Below, piece by piece: positions 45,626 to 62,532 of a DNA stretch of 62,532 bases. Made by a program: the position numbers and the translations under genes. The stretch is from a candidate division TA06 bacterium ADurb.Bin131. Its GTDB lineage: Bacteria > Ratteibacteria > UBA8468 > B48-G9 > DTJG01. The notes under the pieces were generated by a model that did not search any database, was not told where the DNA came from, and saw nothing but the letters and a program-made list of their open reading frames with translations. Each line of letters starts with the position of its first letter. Within the stretch, counting starts at the first letter, position 1. The stretch is taken from contig MWDQ01000146.1 of assembly GCA_002070645.1 (NCBI GenBank), positions 1 to 62,532 of the forward strand, read 5' to 3'.

Positions 45626-46225
45626 TTATAAAATGCCAATGGAAACTCTAAGTATCAGGATTACATCAGAGATATCAACTATATTGTCATTGTTCATATC
45701 TGCTTTTTGATTCAATTGGTTAAGACCTATTGCAATTCTTAAACAAAGTATTACATCTGAAATATCAACAGTGCCATCATTGTTAATATCTCCTTTACCT
45801 CCGCGTAAAATAGTATCACCTGTTATCTGGGTTCCCTCAGGGTTATCAAGTGTCATTACAGATCCAGAAAATTCATAATCGCCAGATGCCATTGGTGGAA
45901 CATAAGCCCTGTATGTTATAGAAAACGAAGGCACTCCGCCACCGCTAAAGGCAACCCATTTATAGATAATGTTTCCATTGTTATCAACCTCAGTGCCAGC
46001 CATCACCTGATATGTCGCCTGCACAGATGTTTCAATCATTGTGAAATCATCAGGGATATGTTCCCTGACAATTACACCACTAACACCAGGATCAACATTA
46101 ACATTGATTGTCACAGAAATATATCCGTTAGGTACATATGTCGGAGGAAGAGTCCTTGTGCCTGTTGTGCTGGCAAAACAAACACTACTAATAAGCAAAA
46201 AAATAAATGGTGCGATGTTTTTCAT
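45626..46225 (-). CDS. Secreted 'RDLP'-domain protein with type I dockerin
   Basis: A 199-residue secreted protein (signal peptide about 1-18, ending CFA). Residues ~22-140 form a beta-rich domain shared with the proteins at 51911 and 60694 (TRTLPPTYVPNGYISVTI ... YKWVAFSGG ... FSITYRAYVPP ... ITGDTIL). Residues ~143-199 are a type I dockerin with two calcium-loop repeats, GDINNDGTVDISDVILCLRI and ADMNNDNIVDISDVILILRV. Dockerins bind cohesins in cell-surface or cellulosome-like complexes, and no cohesin is visible in this window. The domain combination suggests attachment of the RDLP domain to a scaffold. Confidence 0.8.
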   Translation of the reverse strand: MKNIAPFIFLLISSVCFASTTGTRTLPPTYVPNGYISVTINVNVDPGVSGVIVREHIPDDFTMIETSVQATYQVMAGTEVDNNGNIIYKWVAFSGGGVPSFSITYRAYVPPMASGDYEFSGSVMTLDNPEGTQITGDTILRGGKGDINNDGTVDISDVILCLRIAIGLNQLNQKADMNNDNIVDISDVILILRVSIGIL

Positions 46226-46457: not shown

Positions 46458-47315
46458 TCATTCAAGTCCAACTGCTTTTTTCAAGAGCAATACTACATCT
46501 AATATATCGATAACTCCATCGTCGTTTAAGTCTCCCATATCCTTCTCTGCCTTATCCAGATCAATAGCCATCCTGAGGACAAGTATAACATCTGATATAT
46601 CAACTGACAAATCAAGATTCACATCTCCCTTTTCATATAAATTGAGAACAATATCATTAGCAGGGAAAAAAGAATTTATATCCGCGCTAAATTTAGCCCA
46701 ACCGTATTTTCCATTATAACATTCGATCTTGACCGTGCTATTTTCATTATATTTGAAATAATCAGAAAGATCTGTTGCCCTTATAGAACCAATATCAATC
46801 AGCCAGTATCCAGAATTTTCAACAAGGCAACTTAAGGATTGCGATTGCTCTCCGTTGGTATTCTCCACTGAAAGGTAAACGATTGAACCAGAAGCAGGAT
46901 GGTTATCATTTTTAAATACTCTGCCATACTTAGTATCTGGTAGAGGTGGCGGTACCGAAATATTTTTTCCTGTAACAAAGGTACAGTGATTACCTTCATT
47001 ATTATACACATCATCATCTATAATGATATCAAAATAATATCTTGTTTCTGATTGTATCTGAAAAGGTTCACCAACAACAACGTAATGGGTTATTCCTGAA
47101 TATTGTTGTCCTCTTGAATCATACGCCACGCTGGTAATATTATCCGGGTCTAAACCAAACCGAATATATCCCGAACAATCCGAAAGAGTAATCCACGAAA
47201 TTGTAACCGAGTTATTCGTGACATTTGTAATTTTAGGATCAATGGGAATAGCTGATAAAGAAACCCTACACGTTATAAAACAAAAAGATAATAATAAGAA
47301 AAAATTGTTCCTCAT
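46458..47315 (-). CDS. Secreted FnIII-like/regulatory-like protein with dockerin
   Basis: A 285-residue secreted protein. After a signal peptide (about 1-22) comes an FnIII-like domain (about 25-110: TISWITLSDCSGYIRFGLDP, YDSRGQQYSGITHYVVVGEP, ETRYYFDIIIDDD). A carboxypeptidase-regulatory-like domain follows (about 125-225: YGRVFKNDNHPASGSIVYLS, GYWLIDIGSIRATDLSDYF). A dockerin is at ~228-285 (GDVNLDLSVDISDVILVLRM, GDLNDDGVIDILDVVLLLKK). The FnIII plus regulatory pair recurs in the next two genes. A 4-codon reading frame with a good GGAGG site (ATG at 47326-47324) ends in a TGA overlapping the start codon, so the gene may be read by coupling. Confidence 0.8.
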   Translation of the reverse strand: MRNNFFLLLSFCFITCRVSLSAIPIDPKITNVTNNSVTISWITLSDCSGYIRFGLDPDNITSVAYDSRGQQYSGITHYVVVGEPFQIQSETRYYFDIIIDDDVYNNEGNHCTFVTGKNISVPPPLPDTKYGRVFKNDNHPASGSIVYLSVENTNGEQSQSLSCLVENSGYWLIDIGSIRATDLSDYFKYNENSTVKIECYNGKYGWAKFSADINSFFPANDIVLNLYEKGDVNLDLSVDISDVILVLRMAIDLDKAEKDMGDLNDDGVIDILDVVLLLKKAVGLE

Positions 47316-47661
47316 TGTTCTCTCATTTTCCTCCTTTACTTTATTTTCTTCAATCTACGATTCGGAAAAACTGTTCTCCGAGAAGATTACCCTCTCGCAC
47401 AAGCATTTTCTCTCTCTAGGAGGGTAAGGTGGTTTTCTTCATTTGTAATTTCTCACTCTCCCCTCTTTATTACTATCCCTTACCCACACGCTATTGCTTT
47501 ATTTTCTTCCTTTGTAAAAGAAGATTTGCTTCCCCTTTATAAAATCCCCCTCACCCCCTTTAAGAAAGGGGGAACTTGCGGGTAAGGGATAGGTGAAGAG
47601 GGGTTGGGGAGATCCCCCCTATCAAATTTACATCTTATCCCTTATTATCTTGATATATCGG
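47316..47661. repeat. Intergenic region with C/G hairpin repeats
   Basis: 346 bp without a gene. CCCCCTTT-AAG-AAAGGGGG (47554-47572) forms an 8-bp stem and is followed by AACTTGCGGGTAAGGGATAG, matching 51740-51778 and 60430-60468. Related blocks lie at 47371-47430 (GAAGATTACCCTCTCGC, CTAGGAGGG) and 47594-47620 (GAGGGGTTGGGGAGATCCCCC). The repeats face the start of the dockerin gene at 46458 and the end of the gene at 47662. Confidence 0.65.
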
Positions 47662-48491: not shown

Positions 48492-51400
48492 CTACTGCAA
48501 TATCATAACAGGAGATGGTTTAGCATTTTTTACATTTATAGATTTATTTGATGTTCCATCCACTGCACCATCAGCATTTATTTCAATAATATCTGTTGAA
48601 GAGTATATAAAGTACCCCGATAAATCCTGGAATCGAGCAGTACTTAAATTAACAACCCAGTATCCATTTTCATCAACAATTGAAGAAAGTTTTTGGGATT
48701 GTCCAGGACTACCAGAACCATCATTATCTTTGATTGTAAGATACACAATTGTTCCCTCTGCGTAAATAGTACCACCTGGCTTATAGACCTGCCCAAACAC
48801 GTTATCAGGTGATGGAAGACCTAAGGTTGGACCCGTTGTTATAGAAAAATGATTTCCGTTATTATTAAAAATAGTACCACCGCAGATAATGTCAAAATAG
48901 TACGTGGTTAAAGGAGAAAGACCACTCACAACAATATAGTGCGTTGTTGATGATATACCGGTGCCTCTTTTATCATATGAATTCATATTAAGAACCGCAG
49001 GTGCTGTTCCATAGGAAATATAACCTGTCTGGCTCGAACTTGTCGTCCACGACACAACAAATGATGTATCGGTAATATTTGATATAACTGGATTTATCAT
49101 TGCAGGTCCTGTATTAGAACCAGGAATCCACGAACTCGCGGTAAGACACCTAACAAAATAACCTTTCCCAGAATTTATTGAGAAATCATTAAAAGGAATC
49201 TCATCTATATGACTGTCCCACATCCCATTACGCCATCTCACAACCTCAACACAATCACCACCCTGAAGGTTTATCTCGTCTATCATCTTCTGGGCTGTAT
49301 AACCTTCAGGAAGCATAGCAGACGGTATTCCAACAAGGTTCCAGCCACTCGTAAGAGGAATAACAATCTCTGTAATATCTTTTCCAAAAATATTCCACAG
49401 AAATGTATTTTCCATTCTGACAAAATATCCTTTTCCTGCATCCACACTGAAATCATTTACAGGAACACCTACAATATACCCTTTCCAGGCATTGTTTATC
49501 CATTTAACGATTTCCGTGCAATTCCCACCTTTCGAAATAATCTCACCAGTAATAGACGATGCTTTTAGATCTGTGCCAATATTGACAGGAAGAGAAATAA
49601 GATTCCAGCCATTTGAAAGGTAAATTACATTGGTAGTACTGAATGTTGCGATAATCGAGAGATCCCCTGTAATAAGAATTGTTTTTGGATTATCAGTACT
49701 TGTGATATCACCTGCCCAGTTTACGAATATATAATCAGAATCAGGTATTGCAGTTAGCGTAACTGAGGATCCATACGGATAGAGGCCGGATGCAGGATCA
49801 AGATTTACTGTCCCCTGGCCCTGAATTATAATAGAAACTGTATGGGTATCAATAGCACATATTGCGGAAATGTTTTTATTGCCATCCATAGTAATCGTAA
49901 TGGATGTTTCTGTCCCGATTGCATCGCCTGTCCAGCGTACAAAATGATAATGAGGAGAAGGTATACAAACAAGTTTAACCGATGATCCATAATCATATGT
50001 CCCTCCAGAAGGTGATATTAAACCATTATCTGGTTGAGATACAGAAAGTGTATAGGTATCCACAGCAAAAGATGCACCAACATTTTTATTTGAATCCATA
50101 ACAATTGATTGCGGATTGACTGAGCCCGATACATCCCCTGACCACGAAATAAAATGATAATGTGCTGAAGGTATTGCAGTCAAACTTACTGATGTCCCAT
50201 ATGCATAACTTGCCTGGTCTGGTTGTCTACTAATACTACCCGAACCTGACACCACATTTGTTGTTAATGAATACATATTAATTAGAAAATTCGCAGTAAT
50301 TGTTTTGTTTCCATCCATTACAATTGTTTTTGGATTTTCACTTCCGTTTATATCCCCTGACCAATTTACAAAACTCCACCCATTAACAGGAATTGCTGTA
50401 ATCTGTACACTTGTCCCATAGTTGTATAACTCTTGGTCAGGGCTTTTCTTCACAGAACCAGAACCTGATGTTTGAAGATTAAGGGAATAAGTGTTTATTT
50501 CAAATATACAACTCAGTGTTTTATTACTATCCACGTGAATTGTTGTTGGATTTTGAGTTCCAGTTGCATCACCCGTCCAACGTACAAAATGATAGCCAGG
50601 CAATGGAGTAGCAGTTAGCACAACATCAGAACCATATGCATAAGAACCAGTAGATGGAGATATCGAACCATTTGAGGGCTGATTTACGGTCAGGGTAAAT
50701 GTACCTGTCGCAAAATTTGCAGCGATTGTTTTGTTTGAATCCATCAGAACACTAACAGGGTTTACAGTACTGGTTATATCACCACTCCAGGATATAAACT
50801 GATAGTGCGCATCAGGTATTGCGGTAAGTGTAACACTAACCCTTTCTCCATGTCTGTATGAAGAAAAATCAGGATTTTTGGTTACACTTCCTGACCCATT
50901 GATATTAACCTTAAGAATATGATCTGGTTGTAAAACAATATCTGGCATTTTAATAGACGCATCAGGTGAACCAATTGTTGTACTCAGAAAGTTTGTCCCA
51001 TATATACTTCCTTCAGCGAAAATTTCAATGGTATCTGTCTCTGAAAAAGAAAAATAATCAGACAGGTCTGATTTTCTTATTGCGCCAACATCCACAGCCC
51101 AGTATCCGCTTTCAACAATACCTGACAAAAGTTGGGATTGCCCTGAAGAACCAAAACCATTATTATCTTTCAGGGTAATAAAGGCAATAGTGCCTTCAGC
51201 AAATGTTGAACCATCATTCATCAGGATTCTACCATATCTTGTTGATGGAGATGGCGGAGAACTAATTACAGGACCTGTTGTTGCTGAATAATGGGCACCA
51301 GAATTGTCATAAGTAATCCCCCCGGAAATAATATCAAAATAATATGTTGTTGAAGTAGATAACCCATCAATCTCAACATAATGCGTTGTGCCCGAAAAAG

Positions 51401-51614
51401 ATAAACCTCTTTTATCATATGCAATCATATTCATATTAGACGATGATGTACCGTACCTTATATATCCCTGTTCTGAATTAGCAGTTATCCACGAAACATT
51501 AAAACACACATCCACTATATTTGAGGTCCTTATATACTGCGGAGTTGACGAAAAAGCGTACATCGCAAATACCAAGGTAAAAAAAACAATTGTTTTAGAT
51601 ATTCTTATAATCAT
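48492..51614 (-). CDS. Large secreted multi-repeat protein (FnIII, InlB-type, GWNLI modules)
   Basis: A 1040-residue secreted protein (signal peptide about 1-21). Order: FnIII-like plus regulatory-like pair (about 25-230); six consecutive ~70-residue bacterial (InlB B-like) repeats (about 234-662), each with the pattern YGS.V.LTAIP ... F..W.GD ... NPKTI.MD.NK.I.A.F; two 'GWNLI ... GKGYFV' modules (about 665-835); then a second FnIII-like plus regulatory-like pair (about 845-1040). It ends without a dockerin or anchor. Such repeats give elongated adhesin-like stalks. The GWNLI module is shared with the gene at 51911. GGAG lies 5 nt before ATG 51614. Confidence 0.82.
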   Translation of the reverse strand: MIIRISKTIVFFTLVFAMYAFSSTPQYIRTSNIVDVCFNVSWITANSEQGYIRYGTSSSNMNMIAYDKRGLSFSGTTHYVEIDGLSTSTTYYFDIISGGITYDNSGAHYSATTGPVISSPPSPSTRYGRILMNDGSTFAEGTIAFITLKDNNGFGSSGQSQLLSGIVESGYWAVDVGAIRKSDLSDYFSFSETDTIEIFAEGSIYGTNFLSTTIGSPDASIKMPDIVLQPDHILKVNINGSGSVTKNPDFSSYRHGERVSVTLTAIPDAHYQFISWSGDITSTVNPVSVLMDSNKTIAANFATGTFTLTVNQPSNGSISPSTGSYAYGSDVVLTATPLPGYHFVRWTGDATGTQNPTTIHVDSNKTLSCIFEINTYSLNLQTSGSGSVKKSPDQELYNYGTSVQITAIPVNGWSFVNWSGDINGSENPKTIVMDGNKTITANFLINMYSLTTNVVSGSGSISRQPDQASYAYGTSVSLTAIPSAHYHFISWSGDVSGSVNPQSIVMDSNKNVGASFAVDTYTLSVSQPDNGLISPSGGTYDYGSSVKLVCIPSPHYHFVRWTGDAIGTETSITITMDGNKNISAICAIDTHTVSIIIQGQGTVNLDPASGLYPYGSSVTLTAIPDSDYIFVNWAGDITSTDNPKTILITGDLSIIATFSTTNVIYLSNGWNLISLPVNIGTDLKASSITGEIISKGGNCTEIVKWINNAWKGYIVGVPVNDFSVDAGKGYFVRMENTFLWNIFGKDITEIVIPLTSGWNLVGIPSAMLPEGYTAQKMIDEINLQGGDCVEVVRWRNGMWDSHIDEIPFNDFSINSGKGYFVRCLTASSWIPGSNTGPAMINPVISNITDTSFVVSWTTSSSQTGYISYGTAPAVLNMNSYDKRGTGISSTTHYIVVSGLSPLTTYYFDIICGGTIFNNNGNHFSITTGPTLGLPSPDNVFGQVYKPGGTIYAEGTIVYLTIKDNDGSGSPGQSQKLSSIVDENGYWVVNLSTARFQDLSGYFIYSSTDIIEINADGAVDGTSNKSINVKNAKPSPVMILQ

Positions 51615-51648: not shown

Positions 51649-51908
51649 GCAGTGTCAAACCTTGCTAATTCTTTAGTAGTGCTTTTGTTTATTTTTCAAT
51701 GTTTCAAAAGTTTTTATATCCATCTCTAAATCCCCCTTGCCCCCTTTAAGAAAGGGGGAAATTGTGGGTAAGGGGTAGTCCCCTTTATAAAAGGGGGAAA
51801 GAAAAGAGATTAGGGGTGTCTCGTAGAGACAGGGTATTCAATCATCAAAACCCATCTCTTTTGTCTTCGGTTTTCCAACATAAAAGTTCCATCTGTTTTT
51901 GACACTAT
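51649..51908. mobile_element. MITE-like element with terminal inverted repeats and direct-repeat flanks
   Basis: A non-coding element of about 260 bp. Its ends carry 9-bp inverted repeats, AGTGTCAAA (51651-51659) and TTTGACACT (51898-51906). It is flanked by the 10-bp direct repeat ACTCAAAATT at 51639-51648 and 51909-51918, two bases outside each terminal repeat, as expected for a target-site duplication. Internally it holds CCCCCTTT-AAG-AAAGGGGG (51740-51758), TGTCTCGTAGAGACA (51817-51831) and other hairpin modules. The right direct repeat overlaps the stop codon of the gene at 51911. No transposase is encoded, so any movement would need one in trans. Confidence 0.7.
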
Positions 51909-51910
51909 AC

Positions 51911-52846
51911 TCAAAATTCACAGGTAGACGCCTTGTTACTCTTAATAAAATATCCTCTCCATGAATCTACTTTAAAGTTATTAAATGGAAAGCCATAAAT
52001 ATATCCCTGCCAGGTGCTATTATACCAGCGGTCAATCTCTATCGCATCCCCTGATTGACTGCGGATCTTTTCCAGAACACCTTCCGCATTATAAGAACCA
52101 CAGGGAATTCCAATCAGGTTCCATCCGGATAAAAAAGAAACAGATACACCAGTTACAGGAATACCCGAGATTGTTACTGTCGCTGAAGATGTACATTTGA
52201 CAAAATATCCCTTGCCTATTTCGAGTGTAAAGTTATTGAATGGATAACCATCAATATGTCCCTGCCAGGTGCTATTATACCAGCGGTCAATCTCTATCGC
52301 CTGAGCCCCATAGGTATTCAACAAATCCAAAAACCCTTGAGCAGTAAACTGTGTTTTTGGCTCTAATGGCAAACATATAAGATTCCACCCATAGGAAAAT
52401 GGTAATTCTTTACTTTCAATGGACTGATGGTCTGAAATGCTACTATCGCCAGTTACCCCAACATCATCGATGCTCGTATGAAGAAGACCAGTAATCTGGT
52501 ATGTTCCAGTTGTTCCAGGTGGCACCTTAACAGTATACCTAACTGTAAACGGAGAAATCGGCGGCGTCCCATAGGCAAGCCACTTGTATGAATTTGTCGA
52601 CGCAACATATTTGCTATATGGCGGATCAGAACTAACAATTGACCAACCAGAAGGAAGTGTTTCTGTAAGAGCAAGCCCCTCTGCATTTGTAATTGGATTG
52701 ATATAAACAATTACAACAAATGTACTATCAGCGGTGTAGTAATCAGGTAAATCCCGCACAGCACTACTTCCACAAAGTGCAATGGAAGGAACAAGTGCAA
52801 AAACAATTAACAGCATAAATCCAAAAAATCCCCTAGGATTTCTCAT
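51911..52846 (-). CDS. Secreted 'RDLP'-domain protein with two GWNLI modules
   Basis: A 311-residue secreted protein with a signal peptide ending in ALC/ALCG near residue 25. Residues ~28-145 are the RDLP domain (VRDLPDYYTADSTFVVIVYI ... ETLPSGWSIVSSDPPYSKY ... YKWLAYG ... VRYTVKVPP). Two ~75-residue modules follow, each with GWNLI.LP, IEIDRWYNSTWQG and GKGYFVK or RGYFIK. The DNA of the two modules shares an identical 42-nt stretch (52004-52045 and 52259-52300). ATG 52846 is chosen because GAGGG lies 8 nt upstream; an ATG at 52861 is less likely. It lacks the dockerin that the other two RDLP proteins carry. Confidence 0.75.
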   Translation of the reverse strand: MRNPRGFFGFMLLIVFALVPSIALCGSSAVRDLPDYYTADSTFVVIVYINPITNAEGLALTETLPSGWSIVSSDPPYSKYVASTNSYKWLAYGTPPISPFTVRYTVKVPPGTTGTYQITGLLHTSIDDVGVTGDSSISDHQSIESKELPFSYGWNLICLPLEPKTQFTAQGFLDLLNTYGAQAIEIDRWYNSTWQGHIDGYPFNNFTLEIGKGYFVKCTSSATVTISGIPVTGVSVSFLSGWNLIGIPCGSYNAEGVLEKIRSQSGDAIEIDRWYNSTWQGYIYGFPFNNFKVDSWRGYFIKSNKASTCEF

Positions 52847-52861
52847 TCTTAAATCCCTCAT

Positions 52862-53381
52862 TTATCGTTGTTCTGCTTTTTATTCTCTGTTCCCAGGAAC
52901 AGAGAATAAAAGTAAGTGTTGCACCTTTCATTTTGCAACATGCATTCTGCAATTCCTTGATTTTCTTATCCCCTTGAAAATTCCATTTAAGGAAGCAGGA
53001 ACTTTAACTACTCCCCTCTTTTTGGTTCTCCCTCCTTTTGTAAAGAGGGGTTGGGAGAGATTTTCCCCCTCTAAATCCCCCTCGCCCCCTTTATAAAAGG
53101 GGGGAATTAGAGGGAGGACTTTTTAAATGGGGAACAAAGGAAGAGAACCTTTTTCAAAGGGGGAATTGGGGGGAGAACTTTTCAAAGGGAGAAATCTAAA
53201 ATCCTCCGCAGCGGGAAAAACAGAGTAAATATTAAAATGGGGTCGGGGAGATCCCGAGGTCTCACCTCTCCCCCTTTGTCAAGATGAGAATCAGAATCTC
53301 CCCCTTTCTCCTTCCTCGGAAGGGAATATCTCAAAAAACTCCAGTTGTTTCATGATAAAAAACTAAATCTACGTTGTAAAA
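52862..53381. repeat. Long intergenic run of C/G hairpin repeats
   Basis: 520 bp without a gene. From about 53020 to 53320 it is a tandem-like run of C-rich/G-rich blocks such as CCCCCTTTATAAAAGGGGGG (53087-53106), GGGGAATTAGAGGGAGGA, TTTTTCAAAGGGGGAATTGG and CCCCCTTTGTCAAGATGAG. It is the densest such array in the window. The part 52862-52990 shows GTTCCCAGGAACAGAG, a short palindrome, and nothing else clear. Confidence 0.6.
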
Positions 53382-56300
53382 TTACTCCAGCCACTTTCCC
53401 TGTGTCCAGTACATCTCTGATTTGCCAACAGCCGGTGGAGTATATACATAAAGCCCTATATATTGGTATTCGCCAGGCACGCTCGAAGCAGTGCTTGCAC
53501 TTCCACCTGTGTGGGTACCTTTTGTCCCTGCTGGACTTGCCCAGATATCTATTAAAGCAAGAAGTATTCCATCCCAGTTTTCAATATCTTCAGGCCATTT
53601 TATACCAAATCCTGATAGTTGTCTACTATTTGTCCATGCATCTATTGCATATAATAAATCCCAGTCCCCTATTATTCCATCGCTTCCTTCCTCATTTTCA
53701 AGAGTATAAACATCAACTGGAATAAAAGGACTTGAAATGCTTATGCTCGAATTCCCAGAAATAACAGCAGTATTTGCAATACCATCAATCATGTATTTGA
53801 TGTCTCCTTCTATTGGTTGAATCCCTGTTGAATTCGGTGCCTTCATCTTTATCCTTACAGTATGGTCTTTTACTCCACCATTCTGGCCTGTACTAAATAC
53901 AATCTTTATTGTCCTGTATCCTTGTGAGGGAGAATCATCATATACAACCGGAGCAGAAAATGCTGACCCATCTATGCTTACAAATATGTCTGATGTCAGA
54001 AAATCTGCAGTTATAATTTCCTCGAGAGTATATCCATTTGGCATACTCGCTTCATCAACATCAATAACCACACTATATTGGAAATCCTGATTTTTTGCTG
54101 TTCTTTTGCTCAAATTCCTCTGCGCAACAATTGTACCTTTCTCTCGTTTTATTCCCCAGATAAATTTATCATTGGTTGGCTCAAGACCAGTATCCTGATA
54201 AAGTGTGGCTAAATTTTCTCCATCTCCAGGAGTTGGATCTATCTTTGGCAATCTTGCTATCTTTATTGTCCTTGTCCCTGATGCAGGGTTATCGCTAACA
54301 TACCCTATATAATAAATGTCTGTTTCAACATTTACATCTCCAAAAAGTGGATAGTTTACATTAAGATTCTGCCCCCCCTCTACAACAAGTTCGCGACTAC
54401 TGCCATTTGTGTCAGTCGTATAAATCTGGTTTATTCCTGCAGGATTATCAGAAAGAAAGATTATCTTTTTCCCATCAGGAGAGTATGATGGCTGCATCTC
54501 ACTTATCGCAGGGGTATAGGTTATCTGCTTCAGTGTTCCTGGATAAATACTTGTACCATCATCGGTTTTTATCCCGAGTGTATAGATATCATATGTTCCC
54601 CCTATATCCCTTTTGCTAAAAACCAGCATTGTTCCATCAGGCGAAAATGAAGGGTGTTGAACATCTGTTGATGAAATATCTATTAATAGTGGGATATCAA
54701 CCTGTGCTGTATCCTGTTTTGCCATCTTTGCGTATATTCCATATTTATTTATCTTCTCTCTTTTTACAAAAACAACCCACCTTCCATCAGGGCTCCAGCA
54801 TGCATCCTTAATTTCATTACCTGCTGATGTTCCCTGCGCAAAGGTTACTTCTCCACTTCCATCATGGTTTGCTCTAATAAGTGTCTGTGGTACACTGTTA
54901 AAACCATATATAATCTTGCCCCCTGTAGAATCCATATCTGAAACAAACTTATCCACTGATATTGTTGATATTGCTGTGCCAGGGTTATCCCAGTTTGTGC
55001 CGTCATTATCGCTTCTGTATATAACCTGATTCCCACCAGCAGTATATACAATGCGGGTATCCTGAACATTAATCACCCTGCCTACCTCAGGAATTAGTGC
55101 AGATGCCCTGATAAAATCAATCTGTCCTGCGTATTCAGTTGTTGTAAAAGAACCAGTCCAGAATGTTAGTGCAATGTTTGTATTTGATATATCGTCTGAA
55201 TTATAGTATGCGCTCCAGACATCAGCACTGTTTAATGATGGGATTCCCATAACATTGGCTGAATAAAACATAAATCCTTGTTTTTCATCGTATATACTCC
55301 TATATACAGGGTCATATTCATCAAGTTCAGGAGTATTCGTAAGATTTTTTTCATCAAGGTTATCAATATCTAACCTGAAAATATCCTGTTTTCCATACTC
55401 AAGTCCCTGGAAGATTGCCTTTGTATAAATAATATATCTCGCGTCATAACGCCAGGCACTCTTTATTCTTCCATAACGAGGAGTCAGTGGAACATTATTA
55501 GTAAGATTTGTAAGATTTGTGCCATCAAGACCTACAGTATATATATCCTGTATTCCATTGTACACACCAATAAAAGAAACCAGTCCATTGTTTATAAATT
55601 CAACATCCTTAATAACTAAATCTCTGACATTACAAACAATCCCTTTTGTCAAACTTATTCTATTGTACGAGAACAATCTCGTGTTGCCATTAGAATCTTC
55701 TTCAACATAAACAATATGCCTATCATCAGGCGATAATGCTGCATATGGGTGATTGTTTCCATTATTAATCACAACCCCTTGACTGGCATTCCCAACAAAC
55801 CTGTCCTTGCTGATTATGTATATCTGCCATAAACCACTTATATTACTGGTATATATAACCTCTTTCCCATTACTGGAAAAAGAAGGATTCCTGATGATAT
55901 ATATACCAGAATATCCAGTGAGTTGCGTTTCACTCTTACTCTGTGTATTTTTAATATAAAGATTTCCAGTTCTTGTAATCTCTCCATTTTGGCGATAGAT
56001 ACCCTTAACATAAAGAAGCAAACCCTCAGTGGTCTCAGGAACCTCAACAGGAGGTAGTGGTGGAATAATCTCCCCAGCAATCTTTTCTGCTACCACAGGA
56101 AGAAACTCCTGCCAGGTTGTTAGCGACCATACATATCCATAATCAGTACTTGAAGATGTGGGTCTTTGAGCAGAATCAGGATATCCTGGGTAATGTGGCT
56201 GAACAATATCCCACAAATTATCAATATCAACACCTAAACCAACGCCAATTGCATTGATAATATCAATCCCAGCAGACATTGCATTATCTGATGCTGCAAG

Positions 56301-56759
56301 GGTCTCACTTATATCGAAGTTTCCGCCATCTGTAATAAGATTTATTGCCTGTCTTGTGCCATGCTCTTGCCAATTCATTATTGTGCTTACACCAAGATTA
56401 ATGGCATCCGCAAAATATGTTGAACCACTTATCATAACTATATTCCTTATTGTTGCTGCAACCTGGTCGGCAACTGCTTGGCTCGTAATTATAGTAGGAG
56501 GAACCTCTACCTTTTGTGCCCCATAACCCGAAAATTGGATTACTGTAACACTAACAGAACCATCACGTGGAATAATATTAGGGTCCTCAATTGCCTTTGC
56601 AAGACCTTCTTTCTCAGTATCAAATGGACTGCCATACATACTTCCAGAACCATCCATAAGAAAAATAAGGTCAGTCCCTTCTCTCGCATATATCTGTTGC
56701 AGAGTGCATAGGAAAAACCCTGCAAAAACAATAAACATCAACCGCATTTTTCTTCTCAT
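53382..56759 (-). CDS. Giant secreted vWA / PD40-propeller protein with conserved C-terminal domain
   Basis: A 1125-residue secreted protein (signal peptide about 1-25). Residues ~28-230 are a von Willebrand A domain with a complete MIDAS: Asp36, Ser38, Ser40 in DGSGS, a Thr in SGSTYF and Asp in LITDGG. Residues ~240-860 contain many WD40-like PD40 propeller blades (SPDGRWVVFVKR, FSPDGTMLVFSKRD, YSPDGKKIIFLSDN). Residues ~870-1010 are a beta-rich region with YDDSPSQGYRTIKI and NGGVKDHTVRIKM. The last ~110 residues hold the shared C-terminal domain (DGIIGDWDLLYAIDAW, WPEDIENWDGILLALIDIWA, MYWTQGKW). GAGG 5 nt before ATG 56759. Role unknown; adhesion or substrate binding is inferred. Confidence 0.8.
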   Translation of the reverse strand: MRRKMRLMFIVFAGFFLCTLQQIYAREGTDLIFLMDGSGSMYGSPFDTEKEGLAKAIEDPNIIPRDGSVSVTVIQFSGYGAQKVEVPPTIITSQAVADQVAATIRNIVMISGSTYFADAINLGVSTIMNWQEHGTRQAINLITDGGNFDISETLAASDNAMSAGIDIINAIGVGLGVDIDNLWDIVQPHYPGYPDSAQRPTSSSTDYGYVWSLTTWQEFLPVVAEKIAGEIIPPLPPVEVPETTEGLLLYVKGIYRQNGEITRTGNLYIKNTQSKSETQLTGYSGIYIIRNPSFSSNGKEVIYTSNISGLWQIYIISKDRFVGNASQGVVINNGNNHPYAALSPDDRHIVYVEEDSNGNTRLFSYNRISLTKGIVCNVRDLVIKDVEFINNGLVSFIGVYNGIQDIYTVGLDGTNLTNLTNNVPLTPRYGRIKSAWRYDARYIIYTKAIFQGLEYGKQDIFRLDIDNLDEKNLTNTPELDEYDPVYRSIYDEKQGFMFYSANVMGIPSLNSADVWSAYYNSDDISNTNIALTFWTGSFTTTEYAGQIDFIRASALIPEVGRVINVQDTRIVYTAGGNQVIYRSDNDGTNWDNPGTAISTISVDKFVSDMDSTGGKIIYGFNSVPQTLIRANHDGSGEVTFAQGTSAGNEIKDACWSPDGRWVVFVKREKINKYGIYAKMAKQDTAQVDIPLLIDISSTDVQHPSFSPDGTMLVFSKRDIGGTYDIYTLGIKTDDGTSIYPGTLKQITYTPAISEMQPSYSPDGKKIIFLSDNPAGINQIYTTDTNGSSRELVVEGGQNLNVNYPLFGDVNVETDIYYIGYVSDNPASGTRTIKIARLPKIDPTPGDGENLATLYQDTGLEPTNDKFIWGIKREKGTIVAQRNLSKRTAKNQDFQYSVVIDVDEASMPNGYTLEEIITADFLTSDIFVSIDGSAFSAPVVYDDSPSQGYRTIKIVFSTGQNGGVKDHTVRIKMKAPNSTGIQPIEGDIKYMIDGIANTAVISGNSSISISSPFIPVDVYTLENEEGSDGIIGDWDLLYAIDAWTNSRQLSGFGIKWPEDIENWDGILLALIDIWASPAGTKGTHTGGSASTASSVPGEYQYIGLYVYTPPAVGKSEMYWTQGKWLE

Positions 56760-56903
56760 CTTAGCCTCTTGTTGAGTAAACCCATCATTCCTCGAATCTC
56801 CCCCTCATCTGTAAAAAGGGGTTAGGTGAGATTTCAAATCCCTCTCGTGTCTCCCTTTGTCAAGGGAGAAGGAACTCGAAATCCCCATATCATTTCGATT
56901 ATC
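56760..56903. repeat. Intergenic hairpin repeat block
   Basis: A segment at 56838-56886 containing CTCCCTT-TGTC-AAGGGAG is nearly identical to 61733-61783. An AAAAAGGGGTTAGGTGAGATTT block precedes it. No gene is present. Confidence 0.6.
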
Positions 56904-59900
56904 TCATTCAAAAACTCCTGGCACCCAGTACATTTCATATAGACGCGCTGGATTTGAAGAATCATTTACATACTTATATCCGCCTTTATACTCTGAGTTT
57001 GCCCATATAGGAATTATTCCAGAGTTTCCACCAGCACCAATAAGTATGCTATCCCAATTGCTGATATCCTGTGGCCAGACAATTCCATATCCAGTTAATT
57101 GAGCATCCATTGCCCAGGCATCAATAGCGTATAAAAGATCAAAATCCTGGATTATTCCATCAGATATCACAAGATCAAATACATTCCTGGTATCAACAGG
57201 CATATATGGATTCTGCAACATTGTTGATCCGTTCCCTGCCACTGCATCAGCCCTCTGGGTTCCATTTAATGAATAACTGACATTCCCGATAAATGATTGG
57301 GTTCCTGTTTGAGATGGCGCTGTTAGAGTAATTCTAACAATATGATCTTTAACTCCACCATTTTTCCCTGCCATAAAAAGAAGCTTAAGGGTTTGGAGGC
57401 CTGCAGATGGAGAATCATCATAAAGCGTTGTTTCTGCCTTAATTCCATCAACATATACCTGAATATCCTTAAAGCCATCTGCACCAGAAGCAAATGTTTC
57501 ATTCAAAGTAAATGCAGTTGGAATGCTTGCCTCATCAACATCAATAGTTATCTGATATGTTATGGGAAGTCCTGTGGCAGATGCAATGCCAAGTGTCCTT
57601 GTTGCAACAATTGTACCCTTTGCTCTGTTCAACCCCCAAGAAAATCTTTCATAACCCTCTGGCACAGCAATCTGAGTATCAACAACACCTGTAACTAAAT
57701 TCTGCCCTGATGGAGATCCTGCGGGTGCAACCCTCGGAAGGGTTGCATACATAATCTCGTTATTTTCTACATATCCAATGGTATCAGTGCCCGTTGATAT
57801 ATCAAAAATAGGGCTGTATACTGGCCATCTATGACCTGGACCCGAAACAACCTTTTCAATACCAGTACCATTCACATCCATTGTATATATCTCGTAGTCC
57901 TCGATACCAAGTTCTTTGTTTGAACAATAAATAATCTTTGCTCCAGTATTAGAAAACGATGGCATTCTTTCGTGAACTGCAACGGTATTGGTCAGGTTCT
58001 GAGGGGTTTTTGTAGCAATAATACTGTCGTTTGTATTATCAATCTTCACAGGTATATAGTAAATATCAAACTTTCCACCTGGATCCTGTTTTGCATAGAC
58101 AATTCTTGTCATATCAGGATTAAAACTTGGCGCATCAATTGCTGTTGCCTGAATGTTTGTGGCAAGAGTGGATTCAGAATAAGTTGAATCCTTTGTTGCC
58201 CTTTTTGCATATATTCCATAAATCCCGGGTGATGTTCTTCTCGCAAAAACAATCCATCTTCCATCAGGAGAAACACTTGAACAATCAGAATTCTGACTTG
58301 GATTTAACGCAAAAGAAGTAAGGTTTGAACCATCATGGTTCATCTTTGATATACCTGTGGGTACTGATTCCATCGTAAACGAAATTGTTCCACCATTTTT
58401 AGAAATCGATGGATTTGACTTATTGGCATTTAAGGACGAGGGTGTTAATTGGACACCATTTGTATCAAAACCAGTACCTGTCCAGTCAGACCTGAACACC
58501 TCTCTGTATGAACCAACCTGTTTTACGTAAACAAGCCGTGTTGCATCAATTGTTATAATCTCTGCTGCAGCCGTTGGAGGTAAAGGAGACCAGTTTGCAA
58601 GACCTGTGTTTATATAGGTAACCCGTTGTTCTTTTGAAACATTGCTATTTGAAAGTGTGGTTGTATCATAGTTTGCCTGCCACAAATCCCTGTTACCAGG
58701 AATTAATTCTGCCTCGTAAAACATCTGGCCATTATCCAGTATGAGTGTTACCCAGCCCCTGTCAACATCATCCCCAAAAAATGTTGGGCTGAACTCATCA
58801 ATATCTCTGGTGTCTGTTACATTGTATTCAGTGATAGTGCCATTGGCTATATCAACCTCAGCAATGTATACCTCCCAATTTCCATACGCAAAACCTTCAT
58901 AATTTCTTTTTGAATAAATCAACAATGGGTTTGCTGTTGTTGCATTTCTCCAGGAGCTCTGTATCCTATCGTACTCTGGTGTAATTGGAACATTAATTGT
59001 AACCTTTTTATAGTTTGCGCCATCTATCCCGATAACATAAATATCCTGCATTCCGTTTTTAACTCCGACAAAAGCGATAACACTCGAATTCAAAAATACA
59101 GGATGTTTTATCTCTAAATACTTCTCTGATTTTATCTGGGTTAGTGTTTCTGTAGAAAAATTATATGTCCATAATTCTGTTCTGTCGGTTCTTTCCCAGG
59201 TAAAAACAACAAGTCCTTGGGTTCCATTGTAATTTGGCGAGATTGCTGCATACTTTGAATTAATCGTTGAGGGAATTGCATCCTGATTATTTTTCTTAAG
59301 GATTAACCCCTGACTTAGGCCAGACACAGTTGCCTGTGTGCTTACAAGGTAAACCCTGAAGTTTGCTGTTGCAGGATCCGGGCTATATGTATAAAGAACC
59401 TTTGATCCATCAGGAGTAAACATTGGATTTAAGATTACACCCTTTCCACCATTTGAATAGTTTGTAACCTTTCTTTCAGTGTTTGCTTCAATCTCTTTTA
59501 CAAACAGGTTTCCTGTGCTGGTTATATCTCCATCTGCATTTCTTGTAATTTTTTCCACATAACAAATCTGGCCCTCATCAGACAATGGAACATATGCAGG
59601 AAACACCTGCCATGGAATAGAAACCTGAGTGCTCGCGACAGGGGGGGTATTATCAACAACACTCACTGTTAAGGTGTAATTACCTGCTGTGCCAGGTTGT
59701 GGAGTACCAGAAAGAAGACCTGTTGAACTATTAATTGTTACGCCATTTGGCGCACCAGAAACGCTCCAGGTATAATTACCAGTTCCACTCGAAACAGTAA
59801 ACTGCACACTTACAGGCATATTTTCTTTTCCATCTGCCATTGTTGTCGGTGAAATACTTCCGAGCGCTTCAACAACTGTTATTGTAACAGAATGCGTCCC

Positions 59901-60230
59901 GCCTACACCAGTTTCAGGATATGCATTTACTGAAATTGGATAAGAACTAGGAGAAGTCGAGCCACTCGTAAACACATAAAGATCAGCAGTGCTATAAGGC
60001 GAAGGAGCATTCCGGGATATTGAAACTACTCCTCCTGTCACAGTCCCTGTTTCTGTCCAGGTAAAGTCACCACTATCACCACTGACTGGCGTAGCAGTAT
60101 AAGTACCACTTATTGAACTACCTGCCCTAACGCGCAATGTGGAAGGGCCCGAAACTGTCGCTGCGTCAACAGTAAAACAAATCCCTGCAATAAAAAGAAC
60201 ACAACCAAGCAAAACCCTTATACCTTTCAC
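56904..60230 (-). CDS. Giant secreted Ig-like / PD40-propeller protein with conserved C-terminal domain
   Basis: A 1108-residue secreted protein (GTG start at 60230 with GGAGGAG 3-4 nt upstream; signal peptide about 1-23). Residues ~25-215 are Ig-like, including a putative-Ig domain (YTWSVSGAPNGVTINSSTG, LSGTPQPGTAGNYTLTVSV). PD40-type blades fill ~220-860 (MFTPDGSKVLYTYS, SVSPDGRWIVFARR, SFNPDMTRIVYAKQ). The remainder matches the protein at 53382: YDDSPSAGLQTLKL, NGGVKDHIVRITL, then the terminal domain DGIIQDFDLLYAIDAW, WPQDISNWDSILIG, EMYWVPGVFE. It is a tandem paralog whose N-terminal part has been swapped. Confidence 0.8.
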   Translation of the reverse strand: MKGIRVLLGCVLFIAGICFTVDAATVSGPSTLRVRAGSSISGTYTATPVSGDSGDFTWTETGTVTGGVVSISRNAPSPYSTADLYVFTSGSTSPSSYPISVNAYPETGVGGTHSVTITVVEALGSISPTTMADGKENMPVSVQFTVSSGTGNYTWSVSGAPNGVTINSSTGLLSGTPQPGTAGNYTLTVSVVDNTPPVASTQVSIPWQVFPAYVPLSDEGQICYVEKITRNADGDITSTGNLFVKEIEANTERKVTNYSNGGKGVILNPMFTPDGSKVLYTYSPDPATANFRVYLVSTQATVSGLSQGLILKKNNQDAIPSTINSKYAAISPNYNGTQGLVVFTWERTDRTELWTYNFSTETLTQIKSEKYLEIKHPVFLNSSVIAFVGVKNGMQDIYVIGIDGANYKKVTINVPITPEYDRIQSSWRNATTANPLLIYSKRNYEGFAYGNWEVYIAEVDIANGTITEYNVTDTRDIDEFSPTFFGDDVDRGWVTLILDNGQMFYEAELIPGNRDLWQANYDTTTLSNSNVSKEQRVTYINTGLANWSPLPPTAAAEIITIDATRLVYVKQVGSYREVFRSDWTGTGFDTNGVQLTPSSLNANKSNPSISKNGGTISFTMESVPTGISKMNHDGSNLTSFALNPSQNSDCSSVSPDGRWIVFARRTSPGIYGIYAKRATKDSTYSESTLATNIQATAIDAPSFNPDMTRIVYAKQDPGGKFDIYYIPVKIDNTNDSIIATKTPQNLTNTVAVHERMPSFSNTGAKIIYCSNKELGIEDYEIYTMDVNGTGIEKVVSGPGHRWPVYSPIFDISTGTDTIGYVENNEIMYATLPRVAPAGSPSGQNLVTGVVDTQIAVPEGYERFSWGLNRAKGTIVATRTLGIASATGLPITYQITIDVDEASIPTAFTLNETFASGADGFKDIQVYVDGIKAETTLYDDSPSAGLQTLKLLFMAGKNGGVKDHIVRITLTAPSQTGTQSFIGNVSYSLNGTQRADAVAGNGSTMLQNPYMPVDTRNVFDLVISDGIIQDFDLLYAIDAWAMDAQLTGYGIVWPQDISNWDSILIGAGGNSGIIPIWANSEYKGGYKYVNDSSNPARLYEMYWVPGVFE

Positions 60231-60693
60231 ATTCTCCTCCTTTTTGTTGGTTTACAAGATATATATATCCTTTTTGTATTTCGTATTTTACAATTTTCAA
60301 TTCTCACGTCATACTCCCCTTCCTCTGTAAATTCCTGTTCCTCCCCTCTTTTATAATTTCCAATTTCTCCCCTCTTTTGTAAAGATGGGTTAGGGGAGAT
60401 TTCCTCCTCCCTCCTAAATCCCCCTTTGTCCCCCTTTATAAAAGGGGGAACTTGTGGGTAAGGGATAGTATAAAAGGGGGAAAGAAAAGAGATTGGGGTA
60501 TCTCGTAGAGGCAGGGCATTCAATCATCAAAACCCATGTAGTGAGGGACTTTAGTCCTGTGTCTTTTTCTCTGTATTCCCGAATTTTCAATTTAACCTGA
60601 AATATATTTTTATCTTTTTTTATTCTTATGTCAAATGTCAGATAATGTTCAACAAGAAAATTACCATCCCTTTCCTTGCTTTTCTACAGGTTT
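60231..60693. repeat. Intergenic mosaic of hairpin repeats
   Basis: 463 bp without a gene. It contains C/G blocks including CCCCCTTTATAAAAGGGGG (60430-60448), followed by AACTTGTGGGTAAGGGATAG, then the hairpin-type module B (TCTCGTAGAGGCAGGG, 60501-60516, arms slightly altered), ATTCAATCATCAAAACCC, and module C (60535-60567). The order A-B-C matches 61780-61890. The open frame 60227-60523 on the minus strand is built from these repeats and is not a credible gene. Confidence 0.65.
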
Positions 60694-61593
60694 TCATTCA
60701 AGTTCAACTGCTTTTTTCAATATCAATATTACATCTAATATATCAATAAATGCATCATTATTAATATCAGAAATTGCGATTATCCAATCGTTATAAGGTG
60801 AACAATAGGTCTGTCCATCAATTATCATATCAAGAGAGACAGCGGCTCTTAAACATAAAATTACATCAGAAATATCCACACATCTATCTTTGTTGATATC
60901 TGCTTTTTGAATCTCAATTGTGTATGTTCCTGATACTATCTGGCTCGGTGAAAACCCCTCCTTAAATGCCCTTGCCTTGATTGTAGTGGTCTCTGTTAGA
61001 TGAACTGGCGAAATATATTCAAAAGAACCTGTATCAGGATCAGCGCCATCAACTGTATAATAAATTGTCGCGTCATTAATAGAACAGGTAATCTCAATAT
61101 CAGGGAAAAAATTATAAAAACTTTGGGGCTCTGGAGAAAAAACAGGGCTTAAAATTGGCATTATCTCGGAAATTGTTGTATCCCCAGTAATATCTGTTAT
61201 AGAATAGCCATCATTCAAAGTACCAGAAAAAACATATTGTCCACCTGTGCCAGCAGGAACATTAACAGTATATCTAATGATAAAGGAATCAATGGGAAAT
61301 TGACTGAAGGCAAGCCACTTATAGGAATTTGTGGATGCAATATACTTACTCCATGGTGGATCAGAATTAACAATTGACCAGCCAGAGGGAAGGATCTCAG
61401 TTACAACGATCCCAGTTGATGGAAAATTAACAGTATCAGTAACAACATAAACAACAACATTAAAGGTTGCCCCGGAAACATAGCAATCAGGAAGATCTCG
61501 CGTGGCAATATTCTCGGCAAAGCAAAAGCACGCGAACAAAACCAATAAAGAAAAAATAAACACAATTTTCTTTCGGATAATTTCTGTAATCAT
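60694..61593 (-). CDS. Secreted 'RDLP'-domain protein with chitobiase-type domain and dockerin
   Basis: A 299-residue secreted protein; ATG 61593 is chosen because AAGGAA lies 6 nt upstream and a signal peptide (about 1-26, ending CFA) follows at once. Residues ~28-150 are the RDLP domain (ATRDLPDCYVSGATFNVVVY ... LPSGWSIVNSDPPWSKY). Residues ~160-225 match a chitobiase/beta-hexosaminidase C-terminal-like domain (ATIYYTVDGADPD, TTTIKARAFKEGFSPSQIVS). A dockerin ends the protein (ADINKDRCVDISDVILCLRA, SDINNDAFIDILDVILILKK) with an insertion between the repeats. The last ~65 bp are nearly identical to the end of the dockerin gene at 46458. Confidence 0.8.
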   Translation of the reverse strand: MITEIIRKKIVFIFSLLVLFACFCFAENIATRDLPDCYVSGATFNVVVYVVTDTVNFPSTGIVVTEILPSGWSIVNSDPPWSKYIASTNSYKWLAFSQFPIDSFIIRYTVNVPAGTGGQYVFSGTLNDGYSITDITGDTTISEIMPILSPVFSPEPQSFYNFFPDIEITCSINDATIYYTVDGADPDTGSFEYISPVHLTETTTIKARAFKEGFSPSQIVSGTYTIEIQKADINKDRCVDISDVILCLRAAVSLDMIIDGQTYCSPYNDWIIAISDINNDAFIDILDVILILKKAVELE

Positions 61594-61935
61594 ATATATT
61601 TCCTTATGTCTTATGTTAACAAAGACATTCATAAGTGTCAAGTAAATTTTGAAATTCACTTCTTTCCCTACTCTCCTTCATCTAATTTCCTGTTTCTCCC
61701 CTCTTTCGTAAAGAAGGATTGGTGGAAATTTTAATTCCCTCTCGTGTCTCCCTTTGTCAAGGGAGAAGAAACCCGAAATCCCCCTTGCCCCCTTTACAAA
61801 AGGGAGCAAGAAAAGAGATTAGGGGTGTCTCGTAGAGACAAGACATTCAATCATCAAAACCCATGTAGTGAGGAACTTTAGTCCCGTGCTTTTTACAACA
61901 CAATTTGTCAAGAGTCAAGAGTTGACCCCGTACCT
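61594..61935. repeat. Intergenic mosaic of hairpin repeats (modules A, B, C, F)
   Basis: In order: C/G blocks from about 61695, a CTCCCTT-TGTC-AAGGGAG hairpin (about 61747-61764), module B with TGTCTCGTAGAGACA (61826-61840), ATTCAATCATCAAAACCC, module C (61863-61890) and module F (61907-61932). This is the most complete B-C-F string in the window. No gene is present. Confidence 0.7.
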
Positions 61936-61973
61936 AAAAAAAAGCAGGGCAGGAAAAATCCTGCCCTGCTTTT
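61936..61973 (-). terminator. Rho-independent terminator
   Basis: A perfect 12-bp stem, AGCAGGGCAGGA/TCCTGCCCTGCT (61943-61954 and 61959-61970), with a 4-nt loop, is followed on the minus strand by a run of eight T (61943-61936). It lies just after the stop of the gene ending at 61990. It is unlike the dispersed repeats and is the clearest terminator in the window. Confidence 0.9.
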
Positions 61974-61989
61974 AATTCATAATTCTACA

Positions 61990-62532
61990 TCAATCACTCC
62001 ACTCGCCTTGTGTCCAGTACATCTCAGCAATACCCGATGTACCACCTTCGGTAGCGTAAAGATCAAATTTGGTCTGGTTGTCGTAATCACCGATGTACAG
62101 GTATTGCCCTGCTTCTTTCGAAGCAGCAGTTACCTGACCACCGAGGCAGTTGTTCTCCACACTCCAATACCATCCAGAGGTTTTAGCAGGACTTGCCCAG
62201 ATATTAACCACAGCCAGGATAATGCCATCCCAGTGCTGTATATCTGCTGGCCAGCCAGTACCATATCCAGGAAGTTGCGCGCTTGATGACCATGCCTCAA
62301 TACCATAAAGAAGGTCAAGGTCCTGAATAATACCATCTGACTTGTTTGCTTCTTTCTTTACATTATACTTATCAACAGGACAGTATGGATTAAGGATATT
62401 CAGGGTGCCATTCCCTGAAACAAGCGCTGATTGTGCCTGGTCATTCATAAAGTAACTTATTGTTCCAGAAAAACTTTTTGTTCCAGTACCAGCAGCAGTA
62501 ACAGAGATTGTAAGGATATGGTCTGCAACAGT
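61990..62532 (-). CDS. C-terminal part of a third giant paralog (truncated by window edge)
   Basis: The minus-strand frame runs open to the right edge, so only the last ~180 residues are visible. They match the ends of the proteins at 53382 and 56904: a beta strand with DHILTISVTAAGTGTKSFSG, YFMNDQAQSALVSGNGTLN, then the shared C-terminal domain DGIIQDLDLLYGIEAW, WPADIQHWDGIILAVVNIWA, and the end EMYWTQGEWSD. This copy has an insertion with SGWYWSVENNCLGGQ. A strong terminator follows at 61936-61973. It is probably a secreted PD40-type protein by analogy. Confidence 0.8.
   Translation of the reverse strand, partial: TVADHILTISVTAAGTGTKSFSGTISYFMNDQAQSALVSGNGTLNILNPYCPVDKYNVKKEANKSDGIIQDLDLLYGIEAWSSSAQLPGYGTGWPADIQHWDGIILAVVNIWASPAKTSGWYWSVENNCLGGQVTAASKEAGQYLYIGDYDNQTKFDLYATEGGTSGIAEMYWTQGEWSD

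Follow-up and report, generated by a model that had tools for sequence, protein, structure and literature searches.

Non-cellulosomal cohesin/dockerin proteins have been described from Cloacimonadota, Omnitrophota and anaerobic methanotrophic (ANME) archaea (PMC8542988, PMC10066038, PMC9012536). A cellulosome-like assembly was inferred in Candidatus Stygibacter from C-terminal dockerins, one of them carried by a C25 peptidase (PMC8542988), and non-cellulosomal dockerins were reported in a giant open reading frame (ORF) of Omnitrophota (PMC10066038). We analyzed contig MWDQ01000146.1 of the candidate division TA06 bacterium ADurb.Bin131 (assembly GCA_002070645.1), whose 62,532 nucleotides are referred to below as the window. 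Its last 9 kb encode, on the minus strand, two complete proteins and one incomplete protein with a common C-terminal end, called here the terminal domain. As in the described systems, the organism is an uncultured anaerobe with dockerin-bearing secreted proteins, and the C25 peptidase that ends in a dockerin in Ca. Stygibacter has a counterpart here that ends in the terminal domain. The dockerins of those systems are recognised as such, however, whereas the dockerin model misses the terminal domain. From its sequence, this domain looks like an undescribed, degenerate relative of calcium-binding dockerin plugs. The reading that we prefer, with about even confidence, is that of a lineage-specific dockerin-like EF-hand-pair module, made of a duplicated loop-helix and a C-terminal hairpin, that would act in docking or capping outside the cell.

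The duplicated terminal domain

An earlier note, made from the window's sequence alone, had described a duplicated motif domain at the C-terminal ends of three neighbouring proteins, and the motifs are indeed present on all three: SDGIIGDWDLLYAIDAW...KWPEDIENWDGILLALIDIWA...EMYWTQGKW in protein 1, SDGIIQDFDLLYAIDAW...WPQDISNWDSILIGAGGNSGIIPIWA...EMYWVPG in protein 2, and SDGIIQDLDLLYGIEAW...WPADIQHWDGIILAVVNIWA...EMYWTQGEW in protein 3. The domain occupies positions 53385..53729, 56907..57209 and 61993..62388, respectively (all on the minus strand, as are the features of these proteins given below). Profile A2 matched it with E-values of 6.0e-23, 8.9e-23 and 6.4e-23, each obtained with the copy itself in the profile; in protein 1, an alignment also supports it. 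In protein 1, the first half consists of a stretched EF-hand-like loop followed by a helix (D1016 to W1042, 53634..53714), and the second of a loop-less repeat, WP..I.NWD..LLALIDIW (W1055 to W1073, 53541..53597), which contains an insertion, GAGGNSG, in protein 2. A Y-x-Y ... EMYW stretch (Y1098 to W1118, 53406..53468) closes the domain; its Y1098 and W1118 are invariant in the family, and both fall inside a hairpin predicted at low confidence (strands E235-242 and E251-257).

The two halves had been considered related, and a self-comparison bears this out. When the family profile was slid against itself, the top score was found at offset 27, pairing DSELLYTIDLWASN with DFWLLKIIDFWAKG, a match equalled by none of 2000 column permutations with alignment A3 and by 1 of 2000 with alignment A2. 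The terminal domain is therefore a two-fold internal repeat beyond chance, in which LL..I..W recurs 27 residues on, without the loop.

A shared domain of about 100 residues had been proposed. The domain is common to the three proteins, but the shared region is longer and extends upstream through a beta-sandwich of about 140 residues and a PD40 propeller, which together with the terminal domain form a unit common to proteins 1 and 2. These two proteins are 46% identical across 230 residues, sandwich included, and the copies share common ancestry. Protein 1 (1125 residues, 53382..56759) has a signal-peptide-like N-terminus, a vWA domain (residues 30-176, 56232..56672; PF00092, E=1.2e-14), a TolB/PD40-type beta-propeller with approximate limits at 54210..56027 (PF07676, E=6.5e-23; TIGR02800, E=4e-30 yet under its own cut-off) and the sandwich (53730..54170), whose strands were predicted by AlphaFold2 with a predicted local distance difference test (pLDDT) score of mostly 60-86. 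Protein 2 (1108 residues, 56904..60230) likewise begins with a signal-peptide-like N-terminus, continues with a putative immunoglobulin (Ig) domain (He_PIG) and the propeller, and ends in the sandwich (57210..57680, placed by alignment) and the terminal domain. The third protein (61990..62532) retains a partial sandwich and the terminal domain; these are the last 180 residues of a longer protein, and its 5' end is missing because the window ends where the contig ends (62532). Three other genomes of the genus encode orthologues, two of them complete (924-935 residues, with a signal-peptide-like N-terminus) and one also cut, which group with protein 3 in a 4-row clade (support 99/99).

Relation to dockerins and EF-hands

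A phylogeny of the copies separated the 14 rows of a wide type, among them the three window copies, from the 15 rows of a compact type, with support of 100/100 for each. Compact copies, two of them in this genome, have an ungapped EF-hand loop 1 (DTDGDKKISDSELL) with all acidic ligands, and the loops of this type follow the pattern D-x-[DNE]-x-[DN]-x-x-I-x-x-x-[DE], then LL..I..W. Ligands 1, 3, 5 and 12 are all held in 17 of the 30 copies, in the first repeat only; these include two wide copies from another family of the order, and the set is incomplete in 12 wide copies, which belong to the genus of the window. Loop 2 is absent from all aligned copies. Judging from these sequences, the branch of the window copies is derived: its loop 1 has been stretched, and the first ligands are gone. 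Compact copies resemble the canonical EF-hand (calmodulin-type loops, PF00036/PF13405, PS00018) in their 12-residue loop with D1, D/N/E3, D/N5, I8 and E12, but differ from it in position 6, where W, F, S or K often replaces Gly, in the loop-less second hand and in the lack of a Pfam EF-hand match. Calmodulin EF-hand loops were the top matches of the compact profile in the PDB, at a marginal E-value of 0.017 and over the loop only.

Like a type I dockerin (PF00404), the terminal domain is a tandem of duplicated loop-helix units whose first repeat, in compact copies, has an acidic loop of EF-hand type; it also lies at the C-terminus of secreted proteins, often behind a beta-sandwich, and is encoded in the same clusters. 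When compared with dockerins of the same genus in an ungapped column test, the loop-helix lines up with each of their two repeats in the expected register, 0.35-1% of permutations scoring as well. In addition, the sandwich of the carriers is homologous to that of their dockerin-bearing neighbours (hhalign probability 96%, E=9.5e-10, with compact relatives). Type I dockerins, in contrast, have two calcium F-hand loops (DxNxDGxxDxxD), the second of which has no equivalent here, and a repeat period of about 31 instead of 27. Peculiar to the terminal domain are an invariant Trp closing each helix (LL..I..W), the WP..WD linker, the C-terminal Y.Y...W stretch and, in the window copies, the stretched loop with lost ligands.

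Several results weigh against placing the domain with EF-hands and dockerins. No Pfam or NCBIfam family matched it, which agrees, for these libraries, with the earlier note, where no named domain was recognised. A profile search of the PDB gave no dockerin match, whereas dockerins of the same genus match PDB dockerins easily by profile. With hhalign, the domain and these dockerins were paired at a probability of 0.5-1.0% over 1-10 columns. PF00404 did not match four isolated domains at E<=10, and at E<=0.01 it matched none of 29 carriers. Read as a gapless loop, loop 1 of the window copies is missing ligands 1 and 3, and the strict PROSITE EF-hand pattern PS00018 matched 2 of 30 copies (0.06% of shuffled copies), most mismatches being due to position 6. 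The fold of the domain itself is also predicted at low confidence. AlphaFold2, run on shallow alignments of 11 and 14 rows, modelled a compact copy as a sandwich followed by two helices (179-196 and 202-217) and a short hairpin; pLDDT was 80-93 in most of the sandwich, about 50-65 in its terminal domain and about 35-50 in that of a window copy. A check by structure prediction thus returned the two helices and the hairpin, at low confidence for the domain.

We filed the terminal domain as dockerin-like, not as a dockerin, because the failures with Pfam, PDB profiles and hhalign stand alongside the loop-helix register and the homologous sandwich. A divergent or degenerate dockerin had been proposed in the earlier note: the EF-hand loop of the compact homologues, the dockerin slot, the duplication and the secretion speak for this description, while the failed dockerin tests and the missing second calcium loop speak against it.

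The sandwich itself admits two comparisons. Foldseek against the PDB placed cohesins among the best matches (target template-modelling (TM) score 0.43-0.64), along with Ig-like domains of pilins and adhesins, and these matches appear to concern the sandwich; the TM values are too low to choose between a cohesin and an Ig-like adhesin or pilin domain. The cohesin family PF00963 had no match in the carriers.

Carriers, distribution and genomic surroundings

A search profile built from 19 copies detected the domain 30 times, in 11 of 35 genomes of the phylum, all from one order; a broad sample of ~350 genomes from elsewhere yielded none. Alignment A2 proved too diverse for pattern scanning; when 84,980 species genomes were scanned with a single pattern, 7 loci were obtained, in genomes of the same order. 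The records with these loci are labelled Candidatus Omnitrophota, 'bacterium' and, once, Vermiphilus. The record labelled Vermiphilus sp. (L082, DYKA01000026.1) shares its genus with records that carry the Candidatus Omnitrophota label, which is likely a naming conflict. Scans of viral contigs, made with a consensus and with the compact alignment, yielded no relatives.

There are 1-5 copies per genome. A count of copies and of their secretion, suggested earlier as a check, added two compact copies in this genome (contig C19, 2250-2432 and 4831-5007) and found a hydrophobic, signal-peptide-like N-terminus typical of export in all full-length carriers (796-1385 residues). The domain ends the protein in every carrier, and PD40 repeats occur in 28 of 29, the exception being the fragment in the window (protein 3). 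In one carrier (L103:4962-9119; also L084), a gingipain-like C25 peptidase is fused to the PD40 propeller and the terminal domain. Compact carrier genes in five genomes (L092, L095, L101, L106 and L107) adjoin genes named by eye as a Rex-like redox regulator (IPQETIRRL.LYLR) and a dehydrogenase-like gene.

One candidate relative lies outside the phylum. The motif HPAD..D.R....E...Y...W..G, used as a lead only, led to L088 (genome G177, from another phylum of 14 genomes), in which two DUF11-like modules are followed by MDSNQDFRISTSEMMIYIAQWKSGGAVSTSDMMSGIAIWKAGEIYHF. Other matches of this motif were weak and did not stand up. Against the family profile alone, L088 scored weakly (6.0 bits, E=0.00067 in a one-protein search), and this score, together with the similar module order, weakly suggests an outside relative. 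Its segment resembles the terminal domain in following DUF11-like modules and in having D.N.DFRIS..EM..YI..W, a repeat S..MM..IAIW and a Y.F hairpin-like end, but it is internal in the protein, has a shorter linker and shows no propeller in the fetched part. We found no second copy of the segment in the phylum of G177 and no match to the L088 region in a plasmid search. A broader profile that included L088 gave no more convincing relatives in 386 genomes, the leftover matches having E>0.001 and mostly short or broken frames.

Type I dockerins, mostly C-terminal, are present in 16 of the 35 genomes of the phylum, including all 11 carriers. Cohesins (contigs C115 and C143) gave three matches above the Pfam cut-off in this genome, one of them in cis with a dockerin. 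At one end of contig C115, a cohesin is directly followed by a dockerin in a single polypeptide (L015); the other end finishes in the same sequence (ASEDGKNTYDIAVIAKTKVYIPDTY...), so that the contig is probably self-closing or mis-joined.

In the window, the three carrier genes had been taken for a tandem, which they strictly are not: a gene for a secreted protein of 321 residues (60694..61659, minus strand) is interposed between the second and third. It encodes a DUF11-like sandwich, Fn3_assoc (PF13287, E=6.7e-17) and a C-terminal type I-like dockerin (Dockerin_1, under the cut-off) in a slot comparable to that of the terminal domain. Two nearby secreted proteins on the same strand end in type I dockerins, one at 46458..47315 (PF00404, 20.1 bits; 25.8 with in-frame neighbours) and one at 45626..46225, behind a DUF11-like sandwich (PF00404 above cut-off). 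Adjoining secreted proteins at 51911-52861 and 48492-51614 have in common repeated GWNLI..P ... W ... GKGYFV modules, and the larger also contains six InlB B-type repeats. A palindromic intergenic element, CCCCCTTTNTNAAAGGGGG, lies at 47554-47572, 51740-51797, 53085-53103, 60430-60448 and 61788-61806, accompanied by longer repeats of 86-96 nt; it has 13 matches over both strands against 0.01 expected, all except one between genes for secreted proteins. A search of 52800-62532 gave no match in Rfam, and PADLOC gave none.

Docking, capping and other possible roles

In the reading that we prefer, the module is fused to a preceding DUF11/cohesin-like beta-sandwich and closes propeller proteins. 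Judging from their sequence features, these proteins would be exported by Sec and fold outside the cytoplasm, loop 1 taking up calcium in the copies that have kept its ligands. A small helical bundle would be completed by the loop-less second repeat together with the Trp/Leu/Ile faces. Since loop 1 is stretched and its first ligands are lost in the window copies, the folding of these probably depends on calcium weakly or not at all. The bundle may then dock on a sandwich-type partner, which could be a cohesin encoded in the genome or a further secreted product of the cluster. Propellers, vWA domains and the C25 peptidase of one relative would in this way be held together in a complex outside the cell or on its surface. 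Docking is suggested by the slot shared with dockerins and by the presence of cohesins in the genome.

The main rival, which we regard as possible if somewhat doubtful, is an intramolecular cap: an EF-hand-derived C-terminal lid packed on its own sandwich, with a stabilising role only and no separate partner. In its favour, every copy examined from the order has the domain immediately after a sandwich of one kind, and the loss of ligands in the window branch, with invariant Trp, Leu and Gly core positions, fits a structural role. One to five copies per genome are also few for a general docking tag. True dockerins, however, fill the same slot in neighbours with a homologous sandwich, and the conserved aromatic pattern of both halves could form a binding face.

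It is improbable that the domain is a true dockerin diverged past recognition that still binds the cohesins of the genome. Those cohesins, the dockerins of every carrier genome, the similar position and the duplicated loop-helix would fit this idea, but the Pfam and profile tests failed, the second loop is absent, the spacing is 27 instead of about 31, and the dockerins of the same genus are not similarly eroded.

A C-terminal sorting signal for a secretion or attachment machine, comparable to the C-terminal domain (CTD) of the type IX secretion system (T9SS), is quite improbable, even though the domain is strictly C-terminal on secreted proteins, including the gingipain-like C25 peptidase. 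SprA (SprA_N) had no match above the cut-off in the 35 genomes, a negative of uncertain sensitivity since no control genome gave a match either; neither Por_Secre_tail nor another CTD matched, and helices are predicted instead of an Ig-like CTD. The 30 copies contain no LPXTG and no hydrophobic C-terminal segment (maximum Kyte-Doolittle 1.26 per 19 residues). These results lend no support to a T9SS, LPXTG or transmembrane anchor, nor to the sorting or anchoring signal suggested in the earlier note. Chance amphipathic-helix similarity of the halves to each other and to EF-hands, in an unrelated new helical fold, would agree with the missing hhalign and Pfam links to EF-hands and with the low-confidence models, but is very improbable given the complete ligand sets of the compact copies, their register with dockerin loops, the calmodulin loops as top PDB matches and the repeat permutation test.

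Going beyond the dockerin-like module as such, the domain and the conserved sandwich modules found in the same secretome may form a separate, so far undescribed docking code beside the ordinary cohesin-dockerin pairs. In this speculative and rather unlikely extension, calcium-dependent (compact) and calcium-independent (window-type) plugs would bring propeller, vWA and peptidase proteins together in a complex on the cell surface. If the domain docks, it would be a type of plug missed by standard dockerin searches, and the extracellular complexes of uncultured anaerobes would consequently be under-counted. With an intact and an eroded calcium loop in one genome, the family offers a natural series on how an EF-hand module may lose its calcium dependence while keeping its place.

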